A stretch of 64,000 nucleotides of DNA from Lichina pygmaea (lineage: Eukaryota > Ascomycota > Lichinomycetes > Lichinales > Lichinaceae): positions 1,798,001 through 1,862,000 of the forward strand of contig OY730175.1 of the NCBI GenBank assembly GCA_963422465.1, given 5' to 3'. Shown here one piece after another: positions 4,636-63,313 of this stretch. The translations under genes were made by a program, and so were the position numbers. The notes under the pieces are model-generated. The model made no database searches, had not been told where the DNA came from, and saw only the letters and a program-made list of their open reading frames with translations. Each line of letters starts with the position of its first letter. The stretch's first letter is position 1.

Positions 4636-4779
4636 GACTGTGTTCCTCCTGGGTTGTAACACTATCCTCCTCTCCATCTTTCATCATCTTGATAAAATCT
4701 GGTCATGCCTCTAAAGTCATGTGTGACTGTTAGCTGAACTCAGCTTGCTGCTCAAATCCACAATCAGGGTTTTGTTTTG

Positions 4780-5160: not shown

Positions 5161-5170
5161 GCTGGAACTG

Positions 5171-6530
5171 TCACAGAAGAAGCTGGCAGTTTGCAAGGTT
5201 CTTGAGTGGTTCCCAGGTATTTTCCGAGTCTGGGTATCCTTTCCACTTGACAAGGTGTTGCTGACCTTTCCTAGCCAGGATCTGTTCAACTTCAAACTCT
5301 TGTTCTTCTTCAGGTTGATAATAGAATGTTTCCTGCAAGGGTGTGCTCTGGTCAGCTGGTTCAATCATCAATATATGAAAGTTTGGATGGACTCTGGCAT
5401 CTCTTGGTAGTCGTATCTTGATGTTGACTGGTCCTGTTTTTTCTTCGACTGAAAATAGTCTGACCTTGATGTTGTCAAGTTTCTTTATCTTTGGTTTCTT
5501 TGTTTTCCAATTTCTTGTGAGAAGGTAGACTTTATCCCCCTTCTTTAGCTGAGGTGCCATTTTCAATTTCTTGTCTATTTAACATTGCATTCTTTCTGAG
5601 GTCTCTTGAAGGTAGTGCCTTATCATTGTGTGCGTTTGTTGTAGGAGCTTGTCATGTTGGAGTGCTTTCTCCGTGTTTGGTGAAGCTCTGCTTGGCATCC
5701 TGATGTTCGCATGTTGTCCAAAATTGGCAAAAAATAGTGATTCCTTTATTGAGTCTGATCTGTGCTGGTTGATTGCCAGCTGTGCCACCAGTAATAACTG
5801 TACCCAATTGCTGTAGGTCTGGTTGATGTAATGCTGTAAGTAAGTCTCCAGGACTTGGTTTACTTGCTCTGTCTGGCTGTCAGTTCATGGGTGATAGACT
5901 GTAGACATTTTGGGTTTTGTTCCCATGGCTGCACTGATTGTCTTCCAGTAGTTGGATGTGAAGAGTTTGTCTCTGTCTGTAATGATTGTAATTGGAACTC
6001 CATGGTCTCTGACCAATCTGTCCAGTAAGAGGTATCCCAACTGTTCTGCTGTGTGGGTCTTCTTGAATAGTACTGCTATTAGATATTTTGTGAATCTGTC
6101 CACTATCACCATAATCAAGTTGTAGGTGATTCCTGTGACTGGGTCTTTGGACTTAGGTAGCTTTGTGATGAAGTCCATTGACATGTCTTCCCACAGGCCT
6201 CTCAGTATCATGTTTGGGTGTCCTTCTCTGTATGGCTTATGTCTTCCATGTTTGTTTTTCTGGTATAGTAGACACTTGCTGATGTAGCTTGTGACATGTT
6301 GTCAGAAGTTAATGACATTGTTCCCTACCTGTTGGATAAGTTCTGTGGTCTTGGAGATTCCTGGGTGACCATGTGCTGGATTATCATGGTAGTTCCTTAT
6401 TAGTTCTTCAGTGTCTTCTGCCATGAGCTTGTTGATCTGTGGTTGAGGTACCAGGTTTCCTTGCTGGTCCTGCTGTAAGATCGTTCCTTGGTATTCATCC
6501 TCTTCCATGTAGTCTTTTTGTCAGCTTAGT
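5171..6530 (-). pseudogene. Integrase and chromodomain region of A1 (fossil)
   Basis: Reading leftward: an HHCC-like zinc-binding region (HDNPAHGHPGISKT near 6400); the integrase core with DFITKLPKSKD and ITDRDKLFTSNYW segments; a GDKVYLL segment; and a C-terminal chromodomain with the hallmark aromatic and acidic run [15 protein letters not shown] near 5200. The integrase would join element cDNA to the host genome, and the chromodomain is known in chromoviruses to guide insertion to heterochromatin. Broken in several places. Confidence 0.88.
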
Positions 6531-10002: not shown

Positions 10003-10648
10003 TGTTGCAGTCTGTACTGTACTGTCCTATCCGAGTATAGGATTAGGGTGAGAGGTGGAAGGCAGGTTGGTTCTCGCAGGAGAGGAGTGTCAAAGAGCGC
10101 AAAGGGGTTTGGTGGAACGTGGTGGTGGTGACACCTGATCAACAGCTTCGTACAAAAGGATTGTATTGAAGTAGATCTAGTTGTCTGGATCACAACATGA
10201 GTTGAAGATGATTGTTCCATAAGGGAACTATCACCAGACTATATAGTGCCCAGTTTGTGAGCACAGTGAGCTCTGCTCACTTTGCTCACAGTTCATGCAC
10301 ACTGCGGTGAGCTGGGTGAGCTCTGCTCACTTTGCTCACTTGTTCATGCACACTGTGGTGAGCTGGGTGAGCTCTGCTCACTTTGCTCACTTGTTCATGC
10401 ACACTGCAGTGAGCTGGGTGAGCTCTGCTCACTTTGCTCACTTTTCATGCACGCTGCAGTGAGCTGGGTGAGCTCTGCTCACTTTGCTCACTTGTTCGTG
10501 CATATGCATGCTGTGGTGAGCACCCCCTGGTTTGTCTTGCCAGTCACATGACTGGTTCCCGTGTCACGCTGCCTGGTACTTCTGTCCAGTATCCTGTCTG
10601 CTGCTTTCTGTGAGTATATAAAAACTGTGTTCCTCCTGGGTCGTAACA
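10003..10648 (-). repeat. 5' LTR of A1
   Basis: A 646-bp LTR bounded by TGTT and AACA. It contains the palindrome ACTATATAGT (10238-10247), a possible TATA for gag-pol; the 51-bp array (about 10255-10500); and a TATA-like ATATAAAA facing the other way near 10616. The outer edge at 10648 abuts T-LINE sequence beginning CACAT. Confidence 0.9.
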
Positions 10649-13200: not shown

Positions 13201-14520
13201 GTGGCAAACAAAAAGGAAATTATGCCAGAAAGAGTACAAGAGGAGGTGATCTGGAGGCACCACAACAGGCCTTTGCACAGACACCCCGGACAAGATAAAA
13301 CCTTGGAGAAAATCCAAAGGAACTACCACTTCAACAGAATGAAGTGTAAGGTGACAGAGTTCATCCGCAAATGCAAACAGTGTGCGAAGAACAAACTATC
13401 AAGACATAAGCCCTACGGGCAGGCGCAGCAAATAGACCTACCCGAGGCACCATAGGAAACTATCATGATGGATTTTGTGGTCAAGTTGCCAAAGTCAACA
13501 GACCCAGTAACAAAGGTGGTATACAATAGCATTTTGGTGGTTGTTGACAAGCTCACCAAATACACCCACCTGGTCTTGTGGAAAGAATCAGGAACCGCAA
13601 ACAAACTTGCGAGTGTCTTACTCAAAGAGTTGGTAAGCCACTGAGGGCTACCAAAAACAATCATCTCAGATCAAAACAAACTCTTCACCTTGAAATTCTA
13701 GAACACATGGACAAGGCAACTTGGCATTGACACAAGGATGTCAACAGCCTACCATCCACAAACTGACAGACAAACTGAGCAGACAAACCAGACAATGGAG
13801 CAGTATCTACAACACTACATCAACCACCAGCAGGATAACTGGGTGGAACTGCTACCAATAGCCCAGTTTGTGTACAACAACCAGCAATACAGCGTGACAG
13901 GGATGACACTGTTCTTCGCAAACTATGGAAGAAACCCCTGATGGCAGGCAATAGCAGGAGGCAATATTGTTGATGTTAACAAACTCACTGCTATGCACAA
14001 GAAGATGAAAACAACAATTGACTGTGCCCAGAACACCACCACCCACTGACTACATGACAAAAGGTTGAAGGGACCAACCTTGGAAAGGGGGGATAAAGTC
14101 TACCTATCAACAAAAAACCTGTGCTTGAAGTGACCAAGCAAAAAGCTGGACCATGTACAAATCAGACTATTTGAAATTGAGAAGCACACTGGGGAGGTCA
14201 ACTATTGACTGAGACTACCACGAAAAGTAAGGATACACTGAGTATTCCATGTCTCACTGCTTAAACCAGCACCCAGCGACACAGAGATTAAGACAGAATG
14301 GAACTTCAAGGACAACAAAGAAGAGTACGATGTCAAAAGGATCCTGGACAGTCAAAGAAACAGACAGAAAACTGAGTACCTGGTGAAGTGGTTAGAGTTT
14401 GACAAAGAAGAGAATTTGTGGGAACCAACTGAGAACTTCAGCCCTGTGATAAACCAGAAGCTGGTGGATTACCACCAAGCAAACCTGCAGCGACCAGGTC
14501 TGACAGGGACAATAGCTTGA
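13201..14520 (+). pseudogene. Integrase and chromodomain region of C1 (fossil)
   Basis: HHCC-type region (HHNRPLHRHPGQDKTLEKI and CKQCAKNK), integrase core (DFVVKLPKSTD and the TAYHPQTDRQTEQTNQ block), then a chromodomain (EYLVKW..FDKEENLWEPTENF) ending near 14520. This is the same order as in C2. Its 3' end overlaps the antisense frame tail to tail. Broken in several places. Confidence 0.87.
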
Positions 14521-14930
14521 GAGAAGCCAAAGTCTCTGAAGAGAAGATGTTCTCAAAGGATGGTGGAGTGGCAGCCTGACCAGCCTCCTGTTCACAAATA
14601 ACACAGAGGGCCTCTTGTTCCTGAGCATCAAGGGACTCTTGATCCTTGATAGCTGACAGCTCATGACAGATGGCATCAGCCTTCTTCTGTGAGAGATGAC
14701 CCAGCTGCCAGCAGAGGCAGATCTGCCGGGGAAGCAATTTTGACAATTGGTTGTCAGTCTCTCGCAGCTGAGCCTTGAGCTGCTCACACTCAAGTTCCAT
14801 CTTCTTCTATTCTGATTCTGAGAGATGAAGGTTGCAGTGATGACCCTTCTCGACACACCGACAACAAAAAGACAATGTGGAACTCACGACACACTTAGTG
14901 TGGTCACAACAACAAGTACTGCATGCGATT
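14438..14930 (-). pseudogene. Antisense Zn2Cys6-like and coiled-coil frame of C1 (fossil)
   Basis: On the strand opposite C1 gag-pol, in the same position as in C2. Codons from 14923 down to 14834 give six cysteines with spacing CX2CX6CX8CX2CX6C, identical to C2, even though C1 is much more decayed. A charged heptad-like region follows (ELECEQLKAQLRETDNQLSK). The frame is broken in this copy. Confidence 0.65.
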
Positions 14931-15072
14931 TTCAATTCCTTGCCTATTTTGCCAATGTGACAAGAAAGAGAACTGTGATGACAAGTTCAAGTTGTCTGAT
15001 CTTGGTTCATGACAAAAGAGAAGTAGGAAGAAAAAAGGATCTGGGGACAGAACTCTTGGAGAGAGAGGATAG

Positions 15073-22282: not shown

Positions 22283-23257
22283 ACTTGTCAAGCTGTGCTT
22301 GCAAGTCTTGATATATTTGCATACTGTGTCAAGCTGGTCAAGTTGGACTTGCCATACTCAATACATATACACACTGTGTCAAGCAACTTCTGGTCAGTTT
22401 TGACAGTCACATGACTTCCTTCTGTGTTGTGCTGCTTGGTACTTCCACTCAGTATTCTGTCTGTTGCTCTCTGTGAGTATATAAGGACTGTGTTCCTTCT
22501 GGGTTATAACACTATCCTTCTTTCTATCTTTTATCATCTTGATGAAACTTGGTCATACTTCTGAAGTCACATGCAACTATTAGCTGAAGACAGCTTGCTA
22601 CTCAGATCTGTGATCAGGATTTTGTATCACCCACTCCCTGCAACTTTTGTGTTCTCTGTGATCAACTGTTCTTTCAGATACTGGGAGAAGACAGCAAATT
22701 GAAATGTGCTGAGTACACTTGTTGTGGGAAGTCTTGTGTCTCTGTGTTCTGGGAGTCTCTGAATATAGTCCAGGATAACTTTTTTGAGGATATAGCTGCT
22801 GAAGAGGCAATATAAGATATACTCTTTGAACAACTCTCTGTGGTGCAAGTCTGTCTTTCTTGGAAGTGGAAGATGTTGGAAGAGACTGAGGTTTATGTAA
22901 GGTAGAAGCTTTGGTGTCTTGTGAAGATAGAGTTGGATGGTGAGAATTTAACTGTGACAGTCATTGACACATCTCTCCTGCAGGCTGAGCTCTTCAGTCC
23001 TACCCCTGCTAGAACTGTTGCAGAAGAAGCTGGCAGTTCTTGAGGTTCTTAAGTGGTTCCCAGGTATTTTCCAAGTCTGGGTATCCTTTCCACTTGATAA
23101 GGTATCACTGACTTTTCTTAGCCAGAATTTGTTTAACTTCAAATTCTTGTTCTTCTTCAAGCTGGTAACAAAATATCATCTGCAAGAGTGTATTCTGGTC
23201 AGCTGGTTTAATCATTAAGATATAAAAGTTTGGATAGACTCTGGCATCCCTTGGTAG
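22283..23257 (-). mobile_element. Gypsy A2 remnant: 3' LTR end and pol 3' end (fossil)
   Basis: Right part of an A-type LTR of the A4 subtype (22283-22511, with the GTCAAGCTGGTCAAG repeats), then the polypurine tract and about 750 bp of internal sequence. That includes a decayed version of the antisense cysteine cluster (near 22630-22740) and the chromodomain end. It stops at GGTAG where B3 begins. Strongly decayed and clearly old. Confidence 0.82.
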
Positions 23258-25952: not shown

Positions 25953-27700
25953 TTTTATTTTATTTTATTTTATTTTATTCTTACACTGATTTAGCTGTAG
26001 AGCCATGCAGAACTTCTAGGTACATGTTTGTTTCTCCAGAAAACCTTTGGAGGAATAAAAACTGGAGCTTGGGAGAGACTAGGGAAAATCTTGTGGAATA
26101 TGCAGTAGCTAAGGAAATTTGTACATGTAGCTATTTGTTAAAACAAACAGTTGACTTGGTAGAGCTTAGAAAGAGAGTTGGTGGGCTAGGTTGAACTGGT
26201 CAAGTCTTTTCAAAGACATAAACCAGAAAAGAAGTTTAGGAAGTAGCTTGGAGGAGAATAAGATAGATGGGAAATCTTGTAGAGGGAATTGGACTTGTTG
26301 TCTTTGGTTTGAAAATTTGTTACAGAAAAAAGTGATGTGTTGGGCTGTTTCTTCTCCAAAACCACATGTGCATAGAGGGGAGTTAAAGTCTGGAACATTT
26401 GCTCTGAAAAGAAAACTGGCCAGTCCTATTCTTGCTGACAGAATTTGAAGAAATAGACTAGACTCAGCTTTTCTCAAATCTTTGAAGATATTGAGGTTTT
26501 TCTTCTGTGGCCTTCTGGTGAACATGTCCCAAATAGCAGAACAATTTCCTCTGCTTACCTGCCATCTGGCTTCCCATTCTTTGTGGAAAACCTTCTGTAG
26601 ACTTTTCTTTGAGAAGTCTTGGTTAGTAGTTAGTTGTTCCAGCCAGACTGTTCTCCAGTTTAGAGAAATAGTTGTCAGAGACTTTGGTGTAGTTCTGAGA
26701 GAAGAAACATAGAGAGAAATTTGACTGTGTAGTTTGTGGAGAAGTGTAGAAGGAGAGTTGGGTAGTGTGTTTGAATAGAAAGATGAAAGAAAACATGCTG
26801 TTCTCAGCTTGAAGTATAAGTCTAGAGGGGGTAGAAATAGTTCTGATTCAAGTAGGAAAATAGGAGTGGCTTTAAAGACACCTCCTATAGTTCTTAAACA
26901 TTTATTTTGGAAAGTAGATAATGAAATAATATTAGAGAGTTTCTTTTGGGGATTGAACCAGACTCCTACTGCATAACTAAGAAGAGATCTTAGTATAGCA
27001 GTGTAGACATGACGTGCTGTTAGGACTGGTAGTCCCCAAGTAGAGTAGGTTGTTCTGGATAAAGCTGAGAAATATTTGGAGGCTTTCTGTGACATGATTT
27101 TTTGGTGTTTTTTCCAGACAAGTTTTGAGTCAAAGTAAAGTCCCAAGATGCGCACTTCTTCTTTTGGTTGAAGTACCACTTCTCCAAGTCTTAGACTGAG
27201 CTGAAGATTGTCTCTTCTTCTTCTAGAAAAATGGAGAAGTTCATACTTTTCAGGTGCAAACTTCATACCATGTTTTCTTGCCCAGTCCTGACATTTGGAA
27301 TGTGTAGACTTCAACTTGAGAAGGTTGCTTTTCAAGGAGGAGGAGAATGCAAGAAGATTAGTGTCATCTGCAAAACCAAGTGCTGAAACTCCTTTCTCAG
27401 GGGTGTGTACAGTATTGTGCAGTTCTGAGATATAGAAAAGAAATAGAATAGGAGAGAAAGGTGATCCTTGAGGGACTCCACAGTATATAGGGAACTGGGG
27501 GGGTTCTGAGTCATCAAACACCAGAGAGGTAGTACGTGAAGTAGTGAAGGAAAAGATCCAGGATACAAACCACTTAGGAATCATTCTCTTAATCAGGATC
27601 TTTCTGAGAACTTCTGGCAAGACTCTGTCATAGGCTCCAGAGATGTCTAGAGAGAGAAGACTAGCAACCATTCCTTCTTTCCAGATCTTTTCTACCTGGG
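25953..27700 (-). mobile_element. LINE copy L-d, 5'-truncated, inserted in B3
   Basis: L element on the - strand with a (TAAAA)n tail at 25953-25978, a 3' UTR and the last two thirds of ORF2. Flanked by the perfect 14-bp duplication AGATCTGTGAGTAT (25939-25952 and 27701-27714). It is nearly identical to L2, with only a few differences seen over 1.7 kb, so both derive from a recently active source. Confidence 0.94.
26166..27700 (-). CDS. LINE L ORF2 fragment (RT onward), open
   Basis: Open from the truncation point to the stop at 26166; the Met at 27671 is internal. It contains SLDISGAYDRV, GVPQGSPFSPILF, GFADDTN, the thumb region with FAPEKYELLHFSRRR, and the C-terminal CTCGFGEETAQHITFFC. 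No RNase H motif seen. The endonuclease and the first RT blocks are absent because of 5' truncation, so it cannot move by itself. Differs from L2 at very few residues. Confidence 0.9.
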
Positions 27701-34707: not shown

Positions 34708-35136
34708 TATTGCAGTCTGTACTGTACTATTCTACCCAAGTGTAGGATTAGGGCAAGATGTGGAAGGCAGGTTGGTTCTCACAGGAGAGAAGTGTCAAGG
34801 AGTGTGAAGAGGTTTGGTGGAATGTGGTGGTGATGACACCTAATCAGTGGCTTTATACAAGATTGTGGTTTGTATTAAAGTAGATCTAGTTGTCTGGATC
34901 ATAACATGAGTTGAAGATGATTATTCCATAAGGGAACTATCACCTGACTATATAGTACTCAGTTTTCAAGCTCAGCAAGCTGTGCTTACTTTACTCACTG
35001 TTAAGCCTGTCAAGCTGTGCTTGAAAAGCTTGATGTATATACATACTATGTCAAGCTTGTCAAGCTGTGCTCACAAGTCTTGATGTATATACACGCTGTG
35101 TCAAGCTGGTCAAGTTGGGCTTGCCATGCTTGATGT
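34708..35136 (-). repeat. 5' LTR of A4, first part
   Basis: A-type LTR with a subtype-specific 50-bp array (units at about 35011, 35061 and 35111) built on CAAGCT/AGCTTG. It resumes after the LINE at 37601 and ends GTAACA at 37756-37761. Confidence 0.87.
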
Positions 35137-39319: not shown

Positions 39320-39924
39320 TGTTGTGGTCTGTACTGTGCTGTCCTAACCAAGTATAGGATTAAGGGTGAGATGTGGAAGGCGGGTTGGTTCTCGCAGGAG
39401 AGGAGTGTCAAGGAGTGTGAAGAGGTTTGGTGGAATGTGGTGGTGGTGACACCTGATCAATAGCTTCGTACAAAAGGATTGTATTGAAGTAGATCTAGTT
39501 GTCTGGATCACAACATAAGTTGAAGACAATTGTTCTATAAGGGAACTATCACCAGACTATATAGTGCTGGCCTGTCAAGATAATCAAGATTGTCTTGACA
39601 GTCTTGACATCAAGACAGGTGAGATTGTCTTGACACATCATGCACTCTGTGTCAAGACAGGTGAGATTGTCTCAACAGTCCCACCATGTTATGCACCCTG
39701 TGTTGAGACTGGTGAGATTGTCTCAACATGTCATGCATGCTGTGTCAAGACAGGTGAGATTGTCTTGATACTTCATGCATGCTGCGTCAAGCCACCCGTG
39801 TTTGTCTCAACAGTCACGTGACCCTTTGTCAGTTTGGTCACTTGACTTTTCCATAGTGTCCTCTTGTCTGGCCCGTGGCCTGTCTGCTTATAAATAAGTG
39901 GCTCCCTTCCCAGGGATCGTAACA
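39320..39924 (-). repeat. 3' LTR of A3
   Basis: 605 bp, from TGTTGTGGTC to GTAACA, with a 42-bp-type array about one unit shorter than in the 5' LTR. A polypurine tract in element orientation lies beside 39924. It has lost nearly all the CpG sites still present in the 5' LTR. Confidence 0.9.
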
Positions 39925-40049
39925 CTATCCTCTCCTTCATTCATTGTCCTGATGAATTCTTGAGTATGTCTGCAAGATCACATGCCTCTGCTTACTGAAG
40001 ACAACTGGCAGCCCAGATCTGTGATCATAACTTTGTGTCACTTGCTCTG

Positions 40050-40440
40050 TGTGACTTCTGTGTTTTGAACCACAAGCCCTGTTTCTGAATATCTGACAAC
40101 AACGATAAGTTGAAGTGCACTAAATGCACTTGCTGTGGGAAGTCCTGTGTGTCACTTTCTTGGAAGTTGTTGAACATGATCCAAGATAATCTTCGCAAGG
40201 ATGTGGCCACTGAAAAGGTGATGTGTGACGCACTCTTCGAACAGCTTGCTGCAGTGCAAGTTTGTCTGTCTTGGAAGTGAAAAGTCCTTGAAGGTGCTGA
40301 GGGTTGAGTGAAGAAGAAGCTCCAGTGTCTTGTTACTGAAATGGAGGTGGATGGTGAAGACTTGGCGGTGACAGTCATTGATGTGTCCACGCTGCAGGCT
40401 GAGCTGTTCAGTCCTGCTTCCGCTGGAACTGCTGCAGGAG
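40050..40440 (+). pseudogene. Antisense Zn2Cys6-like frame of A3 (fossil)
   Basis: Cysteine codons between 40050 and 40148 on the strand opposite gag-pol show CX2CX6CX11CX2CX6C, the same spacing as A1. It is followed by a leucine- and glutamate-rich stretch (ALFEQLAAVQVCLSWK and later LQAELFSPASAG). TTATAAATA in the LTR (39888-39896) faces this frame. The frame is broken. Confidence 0.6.
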
Positions 40441-41498
40441 GAGCTGGCAGTTCGTGAGGTTTCTAAGTGGTTCCCAGGTATTTTCCGAGTCTGGGTAGTT
40501 TTTCCACTTGACAAGGTATCGCTGACCTTTTCTCTTCAGGATGTGTTCAACCTTGAATTCCTGTTCTTCCTCTGGTTGGTAATAAAATGTTTCCTGCAAG
40601 GGTGTGCTCTGGTCAGCTAATTCAATCATTGAGATGTGAAAGTTTGGATGTACCTGAGCGTCTCTTGGTAGTCGCAGTCTGATGTTGACTGGTCCAGTTC
40701 TTTCTTTGACTGGAAATAGTCTGACTTTGACATAGTCCAGTTTCTTTGTTCTTGGTTTCTTGACTTTCCAATTTTTTGTGAGAAGGTAGACTTTATCCCC
40801 CTTCTTCAGCTGAGGTGCTATTTTCGATTTTTTGTCTATTTGGTGTTGCATCTTTTCTGAAGTCTCTTGAAGGTAGTGCCTCATCATCGTGTGTGTTTGT
40901 TGTAGGAGCTTGTTGTGTTGGAGTGCTTTCTCTGTGTTTGGTGAAGCTCTGCTTGGTATTCTGATGTTTGTGTGTTGTCCAAAATTGGTAAAGAATAGTG
41001 ATTTCTTTGTTGAGTCTGATCTGTGCTGGTTAATTGCCAGCTGTGCCACTGGTAATAGCTGTACCCAATTGCTGTGGGTCTGGTTGATGTAATACTGCAA
41101 ATAAGTCTCCAGGACTTGGTTTGCTTGCTCTGTCTGGCTGTCAGTTCGTGGGTGATAGACTGTAGACATTTTGAGTTTTGTTCCCATGGCTGCACTGATT
41201 GTTTTCCAGTAGTTGGATGTGAAGAGTTTGTCTCTGTCAGTAATGACTGTAATTAGAACTCTGTGGTCTCTGACCAATCTGTCCAGTAGGAGGTGTCCCA
41301 ACTGCTCTGCTGTGTGGGTTTCCTTGAATAGTACCACTATTAGGTATTTTGTGAATCTGTCCACAATCACCATAATTAAATTGTAGGTGATTCCGGTGAC
41401 TGGGTCTTTGGACTTGGGTAGCTTTGTGATGAAGTCTATTGACATGTCTTCCCAAGGGCCTCTTGGTATTGTGTTCGGGTGTCCTTCTCTGTTTAGCT
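40408..41498 (-). pseudogene. Integrase core and chromodomain of A3 (fossil)
   Basis: A long open stretch holding the integrase core (DFITKLPKSKDPVTGITYNL, ITDRDKLFTSNYW and the VYHPRTDSQTEQANQVLETY block), GDKVYLL, and the chromodomain VEHILKRKGQRYLVKWKNYP followed by an acidic NTWEP. The integrase N-terminal zinc region lies on the far side of L2 (52592-52850). The separation is due to the L2 insertion. Confidence 0.88.
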
Positions 41499-42198: not shown

Positions 42199-43602
42199 AT
42201 GTCAAAGAAAAAACCAGAGAAAGAGAAAGAAAACCAGCCTTCTCCAAGCTCCCAGCAACCCCCAGTGGCTAACTCCCTGACAGACCAATCCCAGACTCAA
42301 GAAAAAGAAGAAGAGAAGAGGCTGACACCTCCCCAGCTAGTGGAAGAATAGCTTATCCACACAAAAACTCCCCAACACATCAAAAAAGCATAGGATAGTA
42401 TTCTGTCCAAAGTGGCAGAAGCTCTGGACAAAGATGTCTCTACTCACTCACCTAACTCCCAGAGTCTCCAGAAGATACTTGAGAGACTGGACAGTATTGA
42501 GAAACAAGTCCAAAAACAAAACACCAAGCCGACATATGCCCAGGCAGCCCAGAAAACAGTAGGACAGGAAATCCCTGTTCCAACCAGAATCCACAGTGAA
42601 ATCACTATCAGACCTGGAACTCAGACTGGCCAGTTAGCAAACAGAACACCAGCCCAGCTCATGGAAGCTCTCAAGAAGAAAACACCACTCTCCTGCCAAA
42701 AAGAAATAAGAGCAGCCAGAAAACTACCCTCAGGAGATATTATAATCTCTCTGGAAACTCCTCAAGCCAAGACTCAGCTAGAGGAAAACAAGGACTGGAT
42801 CCCAGCTGTCTTTACAGCAGAGGCCAAGATATCACCCAGAATCTTTCCAGTGCTAGTCCATGGAGTGCAGACAAAAGACTTCAAGCCAGAAAACCTGGAG
42901 GAAACAAAAAAAACAATCTTCTCCCAAAACCCTGGGATGGAAAGTAAGGTCAACATCCTAAGAACCTACTGGTCCAGAAAAGCCAAACTCCTCCAGAAGC
43001 CAGTCACATCTCTACATCTGGATCTAGCCACCCCAGAGCAAGCAAACCTTCTAATTGAGAAAGGAGTAGTTCTAGGATACACTCTACATGAAGTAGAACC
43101 AGCCCTGCTAGCAACATCAGTCACCCAGTGCTACAAATGTGCTAGGTTTGGACACCAAGCACGCACTTGCCAAGCCCAAGCCCAGTGCACAGCCTGTGGA
43201 GGAAAGCATGCCAGAAGAGACTACCAGACTTCTCCAGAAACTCTAACACCAAAATGTGCAAACTGCAAGGGAAACCACCCAGCCTGGTCAAAGTCCTGCC
43301 AGAAAAAACAGGAAGCAATCCAGAAAGCAAGAGAGGTATGGCTAGCAAGACCAGGGAGGTACACAACAGCTCCCAGACTAGCTCTACCTCAGACTCCCTC
43401 AACACAAGAAAAAGAGCCAAGTCTACAAGACAGACAAGAAGCTAAGAAAAGAAAACAAGGGGAAGTACTAAGAGCATGCTCAAGCTCAAGACTGAACACT
43501 CAGCTCCCCACTTTCCCACTTGCACAGAACTCAGAGTTCCAAATCAACATACCCAGAAAAAAGGCTACTGAGATCTTGGAAGACTCTAGCCAAGAGGATT
43601 AA
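42199..43602 (+). pseudogene. LINE L ORF1 (RNA-binding, three zinc knuckles)
   Basis: The start ATG at 42199 is followed by a Lys- and Gln-rich disordered N-terminus; then a central domain (KEIRAARKLPSGDIIISLET, VHGVQTKDF, ILRTYWSRKAKLL); and knuckles at about 43129-43315: CYKCARFGHQARTC, a second in which the last Cys is Tyr, and CANCKGNHPAWSKSC. Such ORF1 proteins bind the element RNA. Two TAG codons (42349-42351 and 42391-42393) break the N-terminal third. The last codon TAA (43600-43602) overlaps the ORF2 ATG as TAATG. Confidence 0.85.
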
Positions 43603-45756
43603 TGAGTTACTCCACACTTAACCTTCTCCAGTACAATGTCCAGAAAAACCAGACATGCCAAGAACTTCTACTGGCAAACCCTAGACTACAGGAAGTGGAC
43701 ATCATCACTCTGCAAGAACTCTGGAAAAACCCCCACCAAGAATCAAGCATCTCTACAACATTCTCAGCCTTCTACTCTTTACAAAGCCAGGAGCTAGGGA
43801 GAACACTTGTTCTTGTTAACAGAAGAATTTTGCAGTCATCTATAAGCCCAATTTTCTGGAGTAAAGATCTAGTCTCCTTGGAGATAAGAGTTCAAACAAA
43901 GTCATTCTGGATCCACAACCTCTATTTCACACCCACAAGCCAAAGAAACTATAGAGAGTCAGCTCAGACTCTTCTAGACCTACTGGAACAAGCTATCCAA
44001 AAAGAGGGTGAACATATTCTCCTGACAGACTCAAATCTCCACCACCCAAGTTGGTCAAAGTCAAGCCAGCTATACTCAGAACTGGCCTTATCCTTCAAGA
44101 ACCTAACAGACAAATAGGGACTAGAGCTGGCAATAGCTCTCTACACACCAACAAAAGCAAGACCTCTTCTAGAACCACCTTCATCAGCAATTGATCTTTC
44201 TTTTATTTCAAGTTCTTTACTTAATTCTCTTATTTACTCACAAATTAACATGAGATTCCACACAGGGTCAGACCACAGACCAGTGCACACAATTCTCAGT
44301 CTGGAGACTCCAAGAAAAACCAGAACAGACAAAAAGAACTAGAGAACTCTGGATGCTAGTCAAGCAAGACAAGAAGCTGATAACCTACCACCTATTGCAT
44401 CTCTTACTAGCAAGAAAGAAGTGGATGATTACCTGGAAAGACTGGACAAAACTCTCCAAGAAATTGCAAACAAGACAACCCAACCTTGCAAAGAGTCCAG
44501 ATATGCAGTACTATGGTGGAACCAGGAAATCAAAGAAATAATCCAGGAGGAAAGAAAAGTAAGAAGAAAAGTACTCCAAGACCAAGAGGAAACCACCAGA
44601 CTAGAGGAGATAACTAAAAAGAAAAAGAGTCTGATCAGACAAGCCAAAAGAAAGACATTCAGAACACATCTCCACCAGCTAGCAGAAACCCAGGACTACT
44701 GGAGAATTGCCAAATGGGGAAAAGAAAAAGCCGGCAAAGTTCCTGACCTACCAATGGTCCCAGAACTTATAGGACAACAAGGACAGCTGGCAAAGTCTTT
44801 TGAAGAGAAAACAGAAGCTTTCAGGACTCAATTCTTCCCTCTTCCCCTACAGCCAGAGCCAGAGGAACAGGACCTGCCAGAAGAAACCCAGGAATAGCAA
44901 CTATCCCAAGAAGTCTCCAAGGAAGAAGTACAAGAGGTTCTAAAGAAGAAAAAATCTCTCTCAGCACCAGGCCAAGATACTCTACCAAATGGATTTCTAA
45001 GAGCACTGGGAGACCCTTTCAACAAAAGAATTGCTAAGGTTTTGGAGGCTTGCTGGAGACTGGAATACTTTCCAGACAGGTACAAGTCAGCCAAGACAAT
45101 CTGCCTAAGGAAACCTGGCAAGAGATCCTACTGTCAAGCAAAAGCATGGCGCCCTATAGCTCTCCTGAATACAATTGGGAAGCTAATAGAAGCTATTACA
45201 GCTGCAAGACTAAGTGAACTAGCTGAGAAAGAAAATCTCTTGCCAGAAATCCAGATGGGATTCAGAAAAGGAAGATCAACAGAATCAGCACTTTTTCTTC
45301 TGACCTCCCAGGTAGAAAAGATCTGGAAAGAAGGAATGGTTGCTAGTCTTCTCTCTCTAGACATCTCTGGAGCCTATGACAGAGTCTTGCCAGAAGTTCT
45401 CAGAAAGATCCTGATTAAGAGAATGATTCCTAAGTGGTTTGTATCCTGGATCTTTTCCTTCACTACTTCACGTACTACCTCTCTGGTGTTTGATGACTCA
45501 GAACCCCCCCAGTTCCCTATATACTGTGGAGTCCCTCAAGGATCACCTTTCTCTCCTATTCTATTTCTTTTCTATATCTCAGAACTGCACAATACTGTAC
45601 ACACCCCTGAGAAAGGAGTTTCAGCACTTGGTTTTGCAGATGACACTAATCTTCTTGCATTCTCCTCCTCCTTGAAAAGCAACCTTCTCAAGTTGAAGTC
45701 TACACATTCCAAATGTCAGGACTGGGCAAGAAAACATAGTATGAAGTTTGCACCTG
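43602..45756 (+). pseudogene. LINE L ORF2, endonuclease and RT (L2, 5' section)
   Basis: The ATG at 43602 overlaps the ORF1 stop (TAATG). Endonuclease about residues 1-200: LNLLQYNVQKNQTC, DIITLQELW and LTDSNLHHPSW, which hold the catalytic Asn, Glu, Asp and His residues of the APE-type fold. Then a coiled linker, RT with KAWRPIALLNTIGKL, GFRKGRSTES, SLDISGAYDRV, GVPQGSPFSPILF and GFADDTN, up to APEK where Gypsy B2 is inserted. Three TAG codons at 44115, 44340 and 44895 interrupt an otherwise single frame; L3 has TGG at the position of the second. Confidence 0.88.
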
Positions 45757-45761
45757 AAAAG

Positions 45762-46032
45762 TGTGACGAGGCAATAGCAGAGCAGAACTCAAGCCTAACT
45801 GATTTGGTAACCTTGACCTGACTTGGCTTGAGACTTGAGACTTCGATTGATGTACAAGGCGAAAGACGAGGAAGGAAAAGAGAAAAGAAGAGAAGAAGCT
45901 GGGGGAGCAGGAGAAGTTCTTATAGGCAGGGGATCAGGCAACAGCGGAGCAAACAGGCAAACAGTGCAGATGGGACTTCCCGGCAAGGTGCGTGGCTTGT
46001 GCCAGATATGCAACTGGGCCAGAACTGTGACA
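45762..46032 (-). repeat. 3' LTR of B2
   Basis: 271 bp, TGTGACGAGG to CTGTGACA. The polypurine tract complement follows (TTACCCCCCTCC). Confidence 0.92.
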
Positions 46033-46230
46033 TTACCCCCCTCCTTCACATGGTGAACTCCTGTGAGCCTCAGGCCACTCGTGGGTGTAGTTCCGTGGCT
46101 GTGGTTTCCTTGGGTATTTCTCATGGAAGTTGTAGATGGTGTCTTTGGCGTTGTCAAGATGCTCAATAGGCTCTTCAGTGGTATCTTCGATTGGCCATCC
46201 AGACTATTTGACCAGGTACTTGAACTTCTG

Positions 46231-47472
46231 TCAAGATGTTGCTGGCTTGGAGTCAAGGATTTCTTCAACCTGGAACTCTTCATCTGTGTCTTGACCAATG
46301 ACAGGGCCAGGGTGTTCATTTGATTGGCCAGGGATAGGATTAGCAGGTGTCAGATGTAGAAGGGAAACATGAAAGACAGGGTGGATCTTGAGAGTGTGTG
46401 GAAGCTCCAGATGGCAGGCACGGCTTCTGACTGTCTTCAACACCTTGAATAGTCCAATCCACTTGTCATCAAGCTTTTTGCATGGGCGGCGTGTCCTGAT
46501 GTTCTTGGTATTCAGCCAAACAAGATCTCCAGTTTGATAGGATGGTGACAGGACTTGATGCAAATTGGCGGTGTGAGCTTGAGCTTCCTGGGATAGTCGG
46601 AGTTCAGCTTGCAACTGTTCCAGAATCTGCGTTATTTCTCCAGAGATTTCCATAGCATCTTGGTTGCAGGCTTCACCCATGGGTGTGATGCTGAGCCGTG
46701 GATGGAACCCTTTGTTGGCAAAGAACAGTGACATGCCAGAGGAATCAGACTGGGAGTTGTTCTGCGTGAACTCTGCCAGAGGAAGCCATTGGACCCAGTC
46801 ATCTTGGAGATAGTTGACATAGGATCTCAGGTAGCGTTCAAGCTCCTGATTCTCTTGTTCTGTCTGACCATCTGTCTCTGGGTGGTGTCCTGAGGATAGT
46901 CGTAGCATGACGTCAAGATGGGCACAGAGTGCTTTCCAGAATAAGCTGACAAACTGACCTCCTCTATGTGAGACAATGCTCCTGGGCAAGCCATGGGTAC
47001 AGACAACAAACTGGATGAACATCCAGACAAGATGTGAGGTTGTTATCTCAGCACATAGCACAAAGTGGTGTTCTTTGGTGAGACAGTCAGTGATGACCCA
47101 GATGTGCTTGGCACCAGGGAAGCAGGCATCTCTTGACTTGGGCAAGTCAGTAATGAAATCCATAGCCAGATCCTGCCAATGTTGCTGAGGCATGGGAAGA
47201 GACAGCAGCTCTCCTTGGCGATCACAGGCAGGCTTTGCTTGAGAGCAGACATGACAATTCCTGATGTACTGCCGTATGATGTTCACTATCTTTGGCCAAT
47301 AGTACCAACAAGACAGAAGATTGTGGGTCTTGGCAATTCCAGTGTGGCCAGCCATTGCTTGGTCATGGGCTTCTTGGAACAGGTGTAGATGTAGCTCATT
47401 GTTCTCAGGGATCCAGAGTTGGTTCTTGTAGAAGAGACAGTTATTTTCCAAGCTGCAGTCTGAGAGAGACAC
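46231..47472 (-). pseudogene. Integrase region of B2 (fossil, largely open)
   Basis: 413 residues: HLHLFQEAHDQAMAGHTGIA and CHVCSQAKPACDR (HHCC zinc domain), the core with DLAMDFITDLPKSRD, then [14 protein letters not shown] and [19 protein letters not shown] (D,D,E region), GDLVWLNTKNIRTRRPCKKL (GPY/F-like) and a short C-terminal EEILDSKPATS. The C-terminus looks like the beginning of a chromodomain, without its aromatic cage part. Confidence 0.88.
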
Positions 47473-51079: not shown

Positions 51080-51084
51080 AAAAG

Positions 51085-52164
51085 TATGAACTTCTCCATT
51101 TTTCTAGAAGAAGAAGAGACAATCTTCAGCTCAGTCTAAGACTTGGAGAAGTGGTACTTCAACCAAAAGAAGAAGTGCGCATCTTGGGACTTTACTTTGA
51201 CTCAAAACTTGTCTGGAAAAAACACCAAAAAATCATGTCACAGAAAGCCTCCAAATATTTCTCAGCTTTATCCAGAACAACCTACTCTACTTGGGGACTA
51301 CCAGTCCTAACAGCACGTCATGTCTACACTGCTATACTAAGATCTTTTCTTAGTTATGCAGTAGGAGTCTGGTTCAATCCCCAAAAGAAACTCTCTAATA
51401 TTATTTCATTATCTACTTTCCAAAATAAATGTTTAAGAACTATAGGAGGTGTCTTTAAAGCCACTCCTATTTTCCTACTTGAATCAGAACTATTTCTACC
51501 CCCTCTAGACTTATACTTCAAGCTGAGAACAGCATGTTTTCTTTCATCTTTCTATTCAAACACACTACCCAACTCTCCTTCTACACTTCTCCACAAACTA
51601 CACAGTCAAATTTCTCTCTATGTTTCTTCTCTCAGAACTACACCAAAGTCTCTGACAACTATTTCTCTAAACTGGAGAACAGTCTGGCTGGAACAACTAA
51701 CTACTAACCAAGACTTCTCAAAGAAAAGTCTACAGAAGGTTTTCCACAAAGAATGGGAAGCCAGATGGCAGGTAAGCAGAGGAAATTGTTCTGCTATTTG
51801 GGACATGTTCACCAGAAGGCCACAGAAGAAAAACCTCAATATCTTCAAAGATTTGAGAAAAGCTGAGTCTAGTCTATTTCTTCAAATTCTGTCAGCAAGA
51901 ATAGGACTGGCCAGTTTTCTTTTCAGAGCAAATGTTCCAGACTTTAACTCCCCTCTATGCACATGTGGTTTTGGAGAAGAAACAGCCCAACACATCACTT
52001 TTTTCTGTAACAAATTTTCAAACCAAAGACAACAAGTCCAATTCCCTCTACAAGATTTCCCATCTATCTTATTCTCCTCCAAGCTACTTCCTAAACTTCT
52101 TTTCTGGTTTATGTCTTTGAAAAGACTTGACCAGTTCAACCTAGCCCACCAACTCTCTTTCTAA
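51085..52164 (+). pseudogene. LINE L ORF2, C-terminal part (L2, 3' section)
   Basis: Continuation after B2: YELLHFSRRRRDNLQLS, the thumb LYFDSKLVWKKHQKIM, the connection region with PPLDLYFKLRTACF, and the C-terminal CTCGFGEETAQHITFFC, stop at 52164. No stop codon in this part. Nearly identical to L-d. Confidence 0.9.
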
Positions 52165-52169
52165 GCTCT

Positions 52170-52579
52170 ACCAAGTCAACTGTTTGTTTTAACAAATAGC
52201 TACATGTACAAATTTCCTTAGCTACTGCATATTCCACAAGATTTTCCCTAGTCTCTCCCAAGCTCCAGTTTTTATTCCTCCAAAGGTTTTCTGGAGAAAC
52301 AAACATGTACCTAGAAGTTCTGCATGGCTCTACAGCTAAATCAGTGTAAGAATAAAATAAAATAAAATAAAACCAAGTCAACTGTTTGTTTTAACAAATA
52401 GCTACATGTACAAATTTCCTTAGCTACTGCATATTCCACAAGATTTTCCCTAGTCTCTCCCAAGCTCCAGTTTTTATTCCTCCAAAGGTTTTCTGGAGAA
52501 ATAAACATGTACCTAGAAGTTCTGCATGGCTCTACAGCTAAATCAGTGTAAGAATGAAATAAAATAAAATAAAATAAAA
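52170..52579 (+). repeat. Tandemly duplicated 3' UTR and tail of LINE L2
   Basis: Copy 1 is 52170-52371 (202 bp, ending in (TAAAA)n); copy 2 is 52372-52579 (208 bp, with a longer tail). They are nearly identical. L-d, a close relative, has only one copy. This fits the reverse transcriptase jumping back to a 3' end during insertion. Confidence 0.93.
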
Positions 52580-52591
52580 TATATCTTCCAT

Positions 52592-54212
52592 GTTTGTTTT
52601 TCTGGCATGGTAGACACTTGCTGATGTAGCTTGTGATATGTTGTCAGAGGTTGATGACATTGTTCCCTGCCTGTTAGATAAGGTCTGTGGTTTTGGTGAT
52701 TCCTGGGTGACCATGTGCTGGATTATTGTGGTAGTTCCTTATTAGTTCTTCAGTGTCTTCTGCTGTGAGCTTGTTGATCTGTGGTTGAGGCACCAGGTTT
52801 CCTTGCTAGTCCTGCTGTAAGATTGTTCCTTGGCGTTCATCATCTTCCATGTGGTTTTTTCGTCAGCTTAGTGCGTCTGCTCTCCTATTGTCTTGTCCGG
52901 GGGTGTACAAGATCTTGAACTTGTGTTGCCCTAGAAGTTCAGCCTATCTGACTTGCTGTCTGTTCAGCTTCTTGGTTATCGTGAACATTGTCAGATTCTT
53001 GTGGTCTGTGAGAATGGTGAGTTCAGAACTGCTTTCCACATACACTCTCCAGTGTTCGAGTGCGTTGACAACTGCCAGTAGCTCTTTGTCGTGGATATCA
53101 TAGTTTTATTCTGCTTGTGACATTTTGTGTGAGTAGTAGGCAACTGGGTGCTATTTGCCATCTGCCTGTTGGCATAGACATACTCCCACTGCTTGGTCTG
53201 AAGTGTCTGTTTTGATTTGTGTTGGCTGGCCTGTCTTGAAGTTGAGGAGAACTGGTTCCTTGGCGCAAGTGTCCTTGAGCTGTTAGAATACTTTTTGTTG
53301 TCTCTCCGTCCACCAGTACTCCACATCCTTCTTTGTGAGTTCTGTCAGTGGTGTTGCTGTCTGTGAGTAGTTCTTGATGAACTGTCAGTTGAAGTTGGCA
53401 AATCCTAGGAATGCTTGTACTTCCTTGACTGATGTCAGTGTTGGCTATTGCTAAATCACTTTGACTTTCTCAGAGTCAATCTTGATCTCTTTGATTCCTA
53501 TAATGTATCCGAGGAATTCAACTTCCAGTTTGTTGAACTTGCATTTCTTCAGGTTGAGCTTGAGCCCTGCTTTTTGTAGGTATCGTAGAACATCCTTCAC
53601 ATGTTTGGTATGTTCCTGTTGTGTTTTCGAGTAGACAAGAATATCATCCAGGTAGGTGATAGCTGTTTGGTCCAGGTGTGCTCTGGTGATGTTGTTGATC
53701 AATGCTTGACATGTTGCTGGTGCATTCGTGAGTCTGAATAGCATAACCAGATACTTGTAGTGTCTGTATCAGGTTCTGAAAGCTGTCTTCCATTCTTCTC
53801 CTTTTTTCATGTGTATCAGGTTGTATACTTCTTTCAAGTCCAGCTTGGTGAAGATTGTAGCTTGGCTGATCCTGTCTCACAATTTGTTCGCATTTGGCAA
53901 CAGATATCAGTTCTTGATGGTAATATTGTTGAGTTTCCTGTAATCCACACAAAGTTGAAGACTTCTGTTTTTCTTTAGTGCAAATAGTATTGGGTATCCT
54001 GCTGGCAATTGAGATTCTCGAATAAAATCCTTTTTCAGGTTTTCCTCCAGGTACTCGCAAAGTACTTGGAGCTCTTTCTCTGATAACTGGTAAATTAGTC
54101 CAAATTCTGGCTCTGTCCCTGGTTGCAACTTGATCTCATGATCCCAAGGTTAGTGCTTAGGTAACACTGCTGTTGTTGTCTCTTCCTGAAAGAGGTTATC
54201 ATACCCAGGTCA
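52592..54212 (-). pseudogene. RT, RNase H and integrase N-part of A3 (fossil)
   Basis: Parallel to A1 6240-7870. RT blocks FRLTNAPATCQALINN and AITYLDDILVYSKTQQEHTK (53451-53744); RNase H segments in the 52991-53326 region; integrase zinc-domain remnants at 52592-52850. Broken in several places. Cut by C2 at 54213. Confidence 0.85.
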
Positions 54213-54217
54213 GTACT

Positions 54218-54678
54218 TGTTAAAGGCCGGGCCGGGTTCACACAGAAACCGGTACAGTCTGTTGCTTTGTAGGGTGGATTCTAGACAGGGACTCGGTAGA
54301 GGAATAGACAGGTGGGGTAACTCTCCTGTGCTATTGTCTCAGTACGATGGATTCGTATTGTGTGTTCAGCCTGGAGAGCTAATCCCTCCGGACTCTTTGG
54401 GGGGTCTTTATACAGATGCCCCAAGGGGGGGGTCTCCTCGAGGGGTATCATCCTTTTGCGTGGACGAGCTCCTCACTTAGCTCCTGCTTGTCCACCGGAC
54501 AAGCTCCTCACTTAGCTCCTGCTTGTCCACCAGATGAGCTCCTCGCTTAGCTCTTGCTTGTCCACCGGACAAGCTCCTCGCTTAGCTCTTGCTCGTCCAC
54601 CAGATCAGTCGGATGTTGTTCTGTATGACTAACACTCCTCCCTCGCTTACCTGGGCTGTTCCGGCCTAGGCCTTAACA
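54218..54678 (-). repeat. 3' LTR of C2
   Basis: 461 bp, TGTTAAAGG to CTTAACA. Four 35-bp units at about 54460-54605 pair GGACAAGC with GCTTGTCC around GAGCTCCTCGCTTAGCTC. The polypurine tract complement CTATCCCCTCCCTCC follows at 54679. CTTTATAC near 54405 reads GTATAAAG in element sense and could be the promoter. Confidence 0.92.
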
Positions 54679-54763
54679 CTATCCCCTCCCTCCAAGAGTT
54701 CTGTCCCCAGATCCTTTTTGTTCCTGCTCCTCTTTTGTCATGAACCAAAGCCAGACAACTTGA

Positions 54764-55312
54764 ACTTGTCATCGTGGTTTTCTCTCTTGTCGTATTGGCA
54801 AAATAGGCAAGGAATCAAAAATCACATGCGGTGCTTGTCATCGTGACCACGCCAAGTGTGTCGTGAGCTCTGCATCACCTTTTTGTTGTCGGTGTGTTGA
54901 GAAGGGTTGTCACTGCAACCTTCATCTCTCAGAATCAGAATGGAAGAAGATGGAACTTGAGCGCAAGCAGCTCAAGGCTCAGCTGCGGAAGACTGATGAC
55001 CAATTGTCAAAGTTGCTTCCCCGGCAGATCCGCCTCCGCTGGCAGCTGGGTTGTCTCTCACAGAAGGAGGCTGATGCCATCTGTCGTGAGCTGTCAGCCA
55101 TCAAGGATCAAGAGTCCCTTGATGCTCAGGAACAAGAGGCCCTCCGTGTTATCTGCGAACAGGAGGCCTGTCAGGCTGCTGCTCCGCTGTCCTTTGAGGA
55201 TGTCTTCTCTTCGGAGGCTTTGGCTTCTCTTGAGCTGTTGTCTCCGTCAGACCTGGTCGCTGCAGGTTTGCTTGGTGGTAATCCACCAGCTTCTGGTTTG
55301 TCGCAGAGCTGA
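54764..55312 (+). CDS. Antisense Zn2Cys6-like and coiled-coil protein in C2 (open)
   Basis: An open frame of about 182 codons on the strand opposite gag-pol. Codons 54827-54916 give CX2CX6CX8CX2CX6C (CGACHRDHAKC then CCRCVEKGCHC), the fungal Zn2Cys6 binuclear-cluster layout. A charged heptad-like region follows (MELERKQLKAQLRKTDDQLS and LSQKEADAICRELSAIKDQE), as in the dimerisation helices of such factors, then an acidic/Leu/Ser tail (SFEDVFSSEALASLELLSPS). I see no ATG before the cluster in this stretch, so the start is unknown (a spliced leader or a non-AUG start are possible). Its end overlaps pol tail to tail (pol stop at 55149). Function inferred. Confidence 0.65.
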   Translation, partial: TCHRGFLSCRIGKIGKESKITCGACHRDHAKCVVSSASPFCCRCVEKGCHCNLHLSESEWKKMELERKQLKAQLRKTDDQLSKLLPRQIRLRWQLGCLSQKEADAICRELSAIKDQESLDAQEQEALRVICEQEACQAAAPLSFEDVFSSEALASLELLSPSDLVAAGLLGGNPPASGLSQS

Positions 55313-56528
55313 AGTTCTCAGTTGGTTCCCACAAATTCTCCTCTTCATCAAATCCTAACCACTTCACCAGGTACTTGGTTTTCCATCTGTTTCTTTGACT
55401 ATCCAGGATCCTTTCAACATTGTACTCTTCTTCATCATCCTCAAAGTTCCATTCTGTCTTGATCTCTGCGTCGCTGGGTGCTGGTTCAAGCAGTGAGACA
55501 TGGAATACTCAGTGTATCCTTGCTTTTCGTGGCAGTCTCAGTTGATAGTTGACCTTCGCAGTGTGCTTCTTGATTTCGAATAGTCTGATTCGTACGTGGT
55601 CCAGCTTTTTACTCAGTCGCTTTGAGCGCAGGTTTTTTGTTGATAGGTAGACCTTATCCCCCCTTTCCAGGGTTGGTCCCTTCAACTTTTTGTTGTGTAA
55701 TCAGCGGGCGGTAGTGTTCTGGGCACAGTTGATCGTTGTTTTCATCATCTTGTGCATAGCAGTGAGTTTGCTAACATCAACAACGTTGCCTCCTGCTGTT
55801 GCCTGCCATCAGGGGTTTCTTCCGTAGTTCGCAAAGAACAGTGTCATCCCTGTCACACTGTGTTGCTGGTTGTTGTACGCAAACTGGGCTATTGGTAGCA
55901 GTTCCACCCAGTTGTCCTGCTGGTGGTTGACGTAGTGTTGTAGATACTGCTCTATTGTCTGGTTTGTCCGCTCAGTTTGTCTGTCAGTTTGTGGGTGGTA
56001 GGCTGTTGACATCCTTGTATCAATGCCAAGTTGCCTTGTCCACGTGTTCCAGAATTTCGAGGTGAAGAGTTTGTCTTGATCTGAGATAATTGTTTTTGGT
56101 AGCCCTCGGTGGCTTACCAGCTCTCTGAGTAGGACACTCGCAAGTTTGTTCGCAGTTCCTGACTCTTTCCACAGGACCAGGTGGGCGTATTTGGTGAGCT
56201 TGTCAACAACTACCAAAATACTGTCATATACCACCTTTGTTGCTGGGTCTGTTGACTTTGGCAACTTGACCACAAAATCCATCATGATAGTTTCCCATGG
56301 TGCCTCGGGTAGGTCCATTTGCTGTGCCTGCCTGTAGGGCTTATGCCTTGATGGTTTGTTCTTCGCGCACTGTTCGCAGTTGCAGATGAACTCTGTCACC
56401 TTGCACTTTATTCTGTCGAAGTGGTAGTTCTTTTGGATTTTCTCCAAGGTTTTATCTTGCCCGGGGTGTCTGTGCAAAGGCCTGTCATGGTGCCTCCGGA
56501 TCACCTCCTCTTGTGCTCTTCCTGGCAC
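55149..56528 (-). pseudogene. Integrase and chromodomain region of C2 (fossil)
   Basis: Zinc domain RHHDRPLHRHPGQDKTLEKI and CEQCAKNK; core DFVVKLPKSTD, ISDQDKLFTSKFW and TAYHPQTDRQTERTNQTIEQ (55809-56528); then the GPY/F region and chromodomain WLGFDEEENLWEPTENF with a basic C-terminal tail ending at 55149. Broken in places. Confidence 0.88.
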
Positions 56529-60072: not shown

Positions 60073-60534
60073 TGTTAAAGGCCGGGCTGGGTTCACACAG
60101 AAACCAGTACGGTCTGTTGCTTCGTAGGGTGGATTCTAGACAGGGACTCGGTAGAGGAATAGACAGGTGGGGTAACTCTCCTGTGCTATTGTCTCAGTAC
60201 GATGGATTCGTATTGTGTGTTCAGCCTGGAGAGCTAATCCCTCCGAGCCCTTTGGGGGGTCTTTATACAGATGCCCCAAGGGGGGGGGTCTCCTCGAGGG
60301 GTATCATCCTTTTGCGTGGACAAGCTCCTCGCTTAGCTCCTGCTCGTCCACCGGACGAGCTCCTCGCTTAGCTCCTGCTCGTCCACCGGACAAGCTCCTC
60401 GCTTAGCTCTTGCTTGTCCACCGGACAAGCTCCTCGCTTAGCTCTTGCTCGTCCACCGGATCGGTCGGATGTTGTTCTGTATGACTAACACTCCTCCCTC
60501 GCTTACCTGGGCTGTTCCGGCCTAGGCCTTAACA
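60073..60534 (-). repeat. 5' LTR of C2
   Basis: 462 bp, the partner of 54218-54678, with the same four 35-bp units. It retains more CpG sites than the 3' LTR. Confidence 0.92.
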
Positions 60535-60539
60535 GTACT

Positions 60540-62666: not shown

Positions 62667-63313
62667 TGTTGCGGTCTGTACCGTGCCGTCCTAACCAAGT
62701 ATAGGATTAAGGGCAAGATGCGGAAGGCGGGTTGGTTCTCGCAGGAGAGGAGTGTCAAGGAGCGCGAAGGGGTTTGGTGGAACGTGGTGGTGGTGACACC
62801 TGATCAATGGCTTCGTACAAAAGGATTGTATTGAAGTAGATCTAGTTGTCTGGATCACAACATGAGTTGAAGACGATTGTTCCATAAGGGAACTATCGCC
62901 GGAATATATAGTGCTGGCCTGTCGAGATGATCAAGATTGTCTCGACAGTCTCGATGTCGAGACGGGTGTGATTGTCTCGACACGTCATGCACTCTGTGTC
63001 GAGACAGGTGAGATTGTCTCGACGGTCCCACCATGTTATACACCCTGTGTCGAGACTGGTGAGATTGTCTCAACACGTCATGCATGCTGTGTCGAGACGG
63101 GTGAGATTGTCTCGATGCTTCCTGCACCCTGCATCGAGACTGGTGAGATTGTCTCGATGCTTCATGCATGCTGCGTCAAGCCACCCGTGTTTGTCTCGAC
63201 AGTCACGTGACCCTTTGTCGGTTTGGTCACTTGACTTTTCTATGGTGTCCTCTTGTCTGGCCCGTGGCCTGTCTGCTTATAAATGAGTGGCTCCCTTCCC
63301 AGGGATCGTAACA
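62667..63313 (-). repeat. 5' LTR of A3
   Basis: 647 bp, TGTTGCGGTC to GTAACA. An array at about 62956-63175 has units spaced 42-51 bp, pairing GTCTCGA with TCGAGAC. It contains GTCACGTGAC (63202-63211) and TTATAAATG near 63277. CpG-rich compared with the 3' LTR. The TCACT duplication follows. Confidence 0.92.
63202..63211. promoter_or_regulatory. Conserved palindrome GTCACGTGAC in A LTR
   Basis: The same 10-bp palindrome occurs in A5 (19983-19992). The A1, A2 and A4 LTRs have forms in which its central CG has changed (GTCACATGAC). The core CACGTG is the E-box bound by bHLH factors. The role is inference. Confidence 0.45.

Follow-up and report, generated by a model that had tools for sequence, protein, structure and literature searches.

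What does the strand opposite gag-pol encode at the 3′ end of the Gypsy retrotransposon C2, and could its product act on the element that carries it? C2 lies in a 64,000-nucleotide stretch of the Lichina pygmaea genome (GenBank assembly GCA_963422465.1, contig OY730175.1, positions 1,798,001 to 1,862,000 of the forward strand), which is called the window here and is numbered from its first base. The element is a member of a Gypsy family designated C and occupies the minus strand inside an element of a second Gypsy family, T, which it interrupts. A sequence-only reading of this DNA had proposed an open antisense gene for a Zn2Cys6-like transcription factor at this place. The antisense frame is confirmed as real.

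The plus strand contains 182 open codons followed by a stop (54764-55312), opposite gag-pol and between the 3′ long terminal repeat (LTR) and the end of pol. The pol frames of C2 encode integrase domains and a chromodomain (pol end with chromodomain, 55149-55508, minus strand), and the chromodomain frame terminates at 55149. Positions 55149-55312 are therefore common to pol and the antisense gene, which overlap tail to tail as had been described, and positions 54764-55148 are pol-free. The perfect CX2CX6CX8CX2CX6C cluster that had been read from the translation is an exact match at 54827-54916 (plus strand). The claim that the gene is open in C2 did not hold. The frame stretches 5′ to an ATG at 54740 (gene at 54740-55312, plus strand) across a single in-frame stop at 54761-54763 just after this ATG, so the C2 copy is not intact. 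The database relatives P0002 and P0010 (190 residues) and some genome copies are open from the equivalent ATG. A loose Zn2Cys6 pattern gave five matches when all six frames of the window were scanned and none in 20 shuffled windows (mononucleotide shuffles within 500-base blocks). Two of the five are exact and correspond to both C copies of the window, the second of which is also interrupted (14438-15010, minus strand); the match at 4789 on the plus strand led to family T, and those at 4337 and 10324 lie within LTR repeats.

The 182-residue frame has at least 150 matches in the 32.5-Mb genome (the best 150 of 276 candidates), with identities of at least 79%. By hand count, 112 of the 150 scored places have no stop within the matched part, which starts after the early stop. 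A search with P0068, a 60% relative, found a subfamily, B, represented by 61 of 150 scored places at 87% or above, and 53 of these 61 places are without a stop (hand count). A third group, D, consists of eight older, decayed places. The analyzed sample contained 22 of the 150 places as subfamily A (20 fetched copies and the two in the window) and 31 of the 61 B places; the eight D copies were described, and the analysis of nonsynonymous and synonymous divergence (dN/dS) covers A and B. Copies L001-L008, which coincide with the window copy and L009-L015, were left out of the counts, as were L023_5736 (the same place as L030) and a 33-residue match in L058. Copy L027 ends elsewhere than the common stop and was left out of the codon-position, dN/dS, bootstrap, and transition analyses.

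Stops are rare in the antisense frame. Counted over 136 codons beginning with the start codon, A copies average 0.77 stops (22 copies) and B copies 0.19 (31 copies), whereas the averages for the five remaining frames range from 2.2 to 7.7. The frame is stop-free over this length in 7 of the 22 A copies and 26 of the 31 B copies, and one A copy is also stop-free in one other frame. The A (21 copies) and B (31 copies) sequences differ by 30.5%, 18.3%, and 45.2% at codon positions 1, 2, and 3 of 125 pol-free codons. The comparison of synonymous and nonsynonymous change that had been suggested as a check supports a coding gene: the Nei-Gojobori method applied to 651 A-B pairs over these 125 codons gave dN = 0.274, dS = 1.242, and a ratio of 0.22, and the ratios for the other frames were 0.41 to 1.88. 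A codon bootstrap placed the ratio at 0.105-0.364 for the antisense frame and 0.252-0.631 for the frame with the second-lowest ratio, which contains many stops; because the two intervals overlap, the stop counts are needed to separate these frames. A clean in-frame gap of 12 codons also distinguishes A from B. The cluster is largely kept across copies: all six cysteines are retained by 19 of the 21 A copies and by 27 of the 31 B copies, and the positions of additional cysteines beside the six vary. These patterns of change argue that the antisense frame is maintained by selection as a gene of the family. An antisense frame between pol and the 3′ LTR that is kept in many copies under constraint corresponds to the antisense open reading frame (aORF) class aORF-3R.

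The spacing of Zn2Cys6 clusters is CX2CX6CX(5-12)CX2CX(6-8)C. The C family fits this spacing exactly, and family T fits it as CX2CX6CX11CX2CX6C. The charged, heptad-like helix region of the sequence-only reading is recovered in an AlphaFold2 model made from a 20-sequence alignment, which predicts a long helix with high confidence at residues 57-139 of the open frame (54932-55180, plus strand). The proposed acidic tail is present but its coding sequence lies opposite the basic end of pol, so its conservation is inseparable from that of pol and may be pol's own. Zn_clus (PF00172) is the commonest Pfam match, found for 12 of 24 members at expectation values (E) up to 1, and no bZIP family is among the Pfam matches in this range. 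Sequence and profile searches of the PDB gave nothing convincing, the best match of the profile being RING finger protein 141 (E = 0.55), followed by LEU3 and HAP1/CYP1 (E = 1.2 to 4.9), and Rfam had no match in 54100-55700. Protein searches returned 69, at least 81, and 23 matches, which are all unnamed and as far as seen all C- or T-kind proteins; these searches require common five-residue words, and the second of them scored a capped list of candidates, so distant relatives may be missed. No named BRTN protein, the product of a fungal antisense gene considered below, is among these matches. The antisense protein is probably a DNA-binding protein of the zinc-cluster type.

Candidate targets for such a protein lie in the LTRs of the same elements. 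The C2 LTRs (3′ LTR at 54218-54678 and 5′ LTR at 60073-60534, both on the minus strand) are 95-97% alike and are flanked by the 5-bp target site duplication GTACT (54213-54217 and 60535-60539, by eye). The C LTR contains a 35-bp tandem array in which TGGACGAG-type half-sites face each other (54462-54605 in the 3′ LTR and 60318-60460 in the 5′ LTR of C2; 15146-15288 for the second window copy). The B LTR has longer units with two direct then inverted half-sites that share the core of the C TGGACGAG type. A similar layout with TGGCAGAG occurs in several D copies, and other D copies are mixtures. The last 330 nt of the LTR contain a median of 6.5 half-sites in A (n = 22) and 6 in B (n = 31), compared with a background mean of 0.37 (A) and 0.34 (B) per 330 nt of gene plus pol. 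In the window, 15 of 16 matches to the 10-bp half-site form fall inside the LTRs of the two C elements, where 0.40 would be expected. The sole window match of the C half-site GTGGAYRAGC outside the C LTRs is at 42351-42360. One B element has a 148-bp tandem duplication around its LTR start (L058:830-1125).

Family T has the same arrangement with different sequences. Its LTR copies in the window are at 4306-4605 and 10293-10592, and its pol ends at 5171 on the minus strand. The T antisense zinc-cluster-like frame at 4705-5205 is interrupted, as are two diverged T-type frames with approximate ends at 39966-40466 and 22555-23052, all on the plus strand. The T frame has at least 150 matches in the genome (the best 150 of 497 candidates), with identities of at least 81%. 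Twelve places picked for a stop-free match were fetched (L067-L078), and three of them (L075, L076, and L077) are stop-free over 155 codons counted from the ATG; L075 and L077 were confirmed as 166-codon frames. Codon positions 1, 2, and 3 differ by 26.9%, 22.2%, and 52.7% between the T copies and the 39966 variant, and a one-codon gap near codon 123 slightly blurs the divergence figures for the 22555 variant. Relatives score up to 12.0 bits against Zn_clus. The six cysteines of the C and T proteins align at an overall identity of 21-22%, and the proteins are alike in predicted plan and in place. Common descent of the two is not claimed (profile comparison probability 2.6%, E = 0.017). The T LTR contains a 51-bp tandem array of inverted GTGAGC half-sites (4306-4515, and 10266-10502 in the other LTR). 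Other T-type arrays have inverted GTCAAGCT half-sites (22287-22384 and 34999-35136) or inverted TCAAGACA or TCGAGACA half-sites (39610-39791 and 62955-63199); the half-sites of all these T-type arrays were identified by eye. The C and T arrays differ, and the half-sites are family-specific in sequence. A Gypsy family without the antisense gene has no tandem LTR array and no antisense zinc frame at 45500-46700.

The explanation that we judge somewhat probable is that the antisense gene encodes a short Zn2Cys6-type protein with a dimerizing coil, an accessory gene product of a chromodomain-bearing Gypsy element that regulates its own element via the LTR of its own family. A dimerizing zinc-cluster protein and an inverted half-site array in one LTR are what self-regulation would look like, and the antisense gene may control its carrier element. 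The antisense mRNA would start from a promoter within the 3′ LTR or next to it. The leader that separates the LTR and the ATG measures about 61 nt in subfamily A and about 52 nt in subfamily B (54679-54739 on the plus strand in C2, the complement of the polypurine tract), and with so short a leader the promoter should lie there. This layout bears out the comparison that had been drawn with HBZ, the antisense gene of human T-cell leukemia virus type 1 (HTLV-1). The T copies have TATATAAAG 77 nt 5′ of the ATG in gene orientation (12/12). The protein would then bind the inverted half-sites that the LTR of its own family carries between the putative sense TATA box (54406-54415, minus strand, by eye) and the antisense gene, and the bound protein would activate or de-silence its own family, with repression as the variant ranked second. 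Family-specific half-sites would confine each regulator to its own kind.

Several results weigh against this explanation. The cluster region is modeled by AlphaFold2 with low confidence, and Foldseek matched the model to no PDB chain. The profile check that had been suggested for the Zn2Cys6 assignment gave sub-threshold scores: the window copy scores 12.2 bits against Zn_clus and the best relative, P0010, scores 20.0 bits (E = 0.00076), under the curated cut-off of 21, so the protein is labeled Zn2Cys6-type and not a proven member. Intact T proteins have no Zn_clus match. The proposed plan of a Zn2Cys6 factor stands in the spacing, the predicted helix, and the acidic tail and falls short in the profile score. 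The antisense protein resembles fungal Zn2Cys6 factors (PF00172) in the six-cysteine spacing, the basic residues between cysteines 2 and 3, and the helix after the cluster; it differs from them in its length of 160-190 residues without the large middle domain, its sub-cut-off score, and its location antisense to a retrotransposon. Near the ATG of the C copies, no TATA is present in gene orientation. The inverted-arm excess of the window C2 LTRs is weak, reached by 8 and 14 of 200 shuffles. Exact inverted arms of at least 7 were above all 200 shuffles in L010 and L058 (little-decayed copies chosen by eye), the 5′ LTR of E1, and the T variants at 39568 and 62915, and the value was reached by 2 and 3 of 200 shuffles for the 3′ LTR of E1 and the 34959 variant, respectively, but these shuffles ignore tandem duplication, which multiplies any palindrome. 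The four LTRs of the gene-less family had values reached by 18, 32, 33, and 200 of 200 shuffles. The link between gene and array is based on two families that have both features and one that lacks them.

The dN/dS ratio within subfamilies (0.34 in A and 0.94 in B) is not distinctive and also belongs with these points. Variable columns within subfamilies are transitions in 116 of 121 cases in A and 85 of 89 in B, with 50 per set in a CpG context, and variation that is nearly all transitions and CpG-rich is the mark of copy decay after insertion. Constraint is therefore visible between the subfamilies, during the time when the elements moved, and not among dead copies. As an observation in its own right, the transition and CpG pattern in 54740-55121 and in the A and B copies would fit a genome in which repeats are methylated, or mutated in some other way, at CpG.

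Two alternatives retain some weight. The antisense protein or RNA may damp sense transcription of its own element and limit copy number, as a negative regulator of the HBZ kind, which we regard as unlikely. The layout resembles that of HBZ, described in the available part of its account as a repressor of transcription from the 5′ LTR (PMC3736048), the putative sense TATA lies downstream of the array, and an RNA variant of this idea was raised for plants in the portion available of PMC7264820. RNA alone is insufficient given that the protein frame is constrained, and the present data do not tell activation from repression; an acidic tail would suit activation, but its conservation may stem from pol. 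Host factors often bind LTRs, and the arrays may be host-factor sites, or RNA or DNA stems, that are independent of the antisense protein. We hold this to be doubtful to the same degree. The commonness of LTR-binding host factors speaks for it, and a stem would also explain why half-sites that differ between subfamilies retain their inverted symmetry; the different spacing and unit length of A and B and the position of the array upstream of the putative sense TATA speak against it.

An accessory protein of the particle or preintegration complex, acting in nuclear entry or targeting and not in transcription, is improbable: the available part of PMC7264820 records such a role as proposed for plant antisense proteins, but the usual targeting part is the chromodomain in pol, and the private LTR array beside a zinc-cluster gene would be left unexplained. 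A chance frame, or one kept open only by pol, is very improbable and was rejected by the stop counts, codon positions, and pol-free dN/dS, with the in-frame gap also against it, although the tail overlaps pol and the C2 copy is interrupted.

Elsewhere in the window, LINE (long interspersed nuclear element) copies occur in inverted orientation at 1118-2380 and 3043-4305 (99.6% alike) and at 25958-27250 and 51080-52372 (99.9% alike). These pairs suggest that LINEs moved or were duplicated recently.

Antisense genes at this place in Gypsy elements are already known. The sequence-only reading had held that these elements are not generally described with such a gene, which is incorrect for antisense genes as such, known from plants and as brtn, and stands for the zinc-cluster type, which was not found in the literature searched. 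The brtn gene is an antisense gene of the Boty-like Gypsy elements of Botrytis cinerea (available parts of PMC7264820, PMC8365987, PMC4227169, and PMC5987419). Both cases involve a fungal chromodomain Gypsy element with an extra antisense gene between pol and the 3′ LTR in many copies, and the differences, drawn from the descriptions in these parts and not from a BRTN sequence, are that a zinc cluster and an LTR array are unmentioned for brtn. The plant aORFs include Grande gene23, RIRE2, and Retand TRP28, which share a suspected nuclear or DNA-binding role, and Retand has tandem arrays in about half of its potentially recently active elements (PMC7264820 and PMC11963269, as far as the available text goes). 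The same text describes no Zn2Cys6 plan for them and places the plant arrays between pol and the LTR, whereas here they are in the LTR. The function of antisense genes of LTR retrotransposons is stated to be unknown in the portion of PMC7264820 at hand, and that of PMC4427930 describes no antisense gene. HBZ is an antisense-strand product from the 3′ LTR and a dimerizing transcription factor, as is proposed for the antisense protein here, but it is a retroviral bZIP protein that works via CREB factors without a zinc cluster (PMC3736048, available part).

A parallel in the pairing of protein and target is VANC of the Arabidopsis VANDAL elements, whose target motifs are tandem repeats that vary between related elements and change in concert (PMC5735166, available part). 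There, too, an element-encoded protein and tandem family-specific motifs occur in the same element, and in C and T family-specific arrays are present beside the encoded protein. VANDAL differs in being a plant DNA transposon with direct motifs, and the same part of PMC5735166 reports binding and loss of methylation, which for C and T we infer. The wider proposal, which we put forward tentatively and as somewhat short of probable, is that in several fungal Gypsy families antisense zinc-cluster proteins are VANC-like self-specific activators or anti-silencers, made from the 3′ LTR like HBZ and coevolving with private, fast-changing inverted LTR arrays.

The open-license full texts searched, which did not include the main brtn paper, yielded neither a described antisense gene of Zn2Cys6 type nor paired LTR arrays, and within this scope these two features are the new part of the finding. 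If these antisense proteins are zinc-cluster DNA binders with targets in the same element, the function of the antisense gene would be directly testable. A single genome would then provide hundreds of element copies that record parallel change in a DNA-binding protein and in the sites it recognizes.
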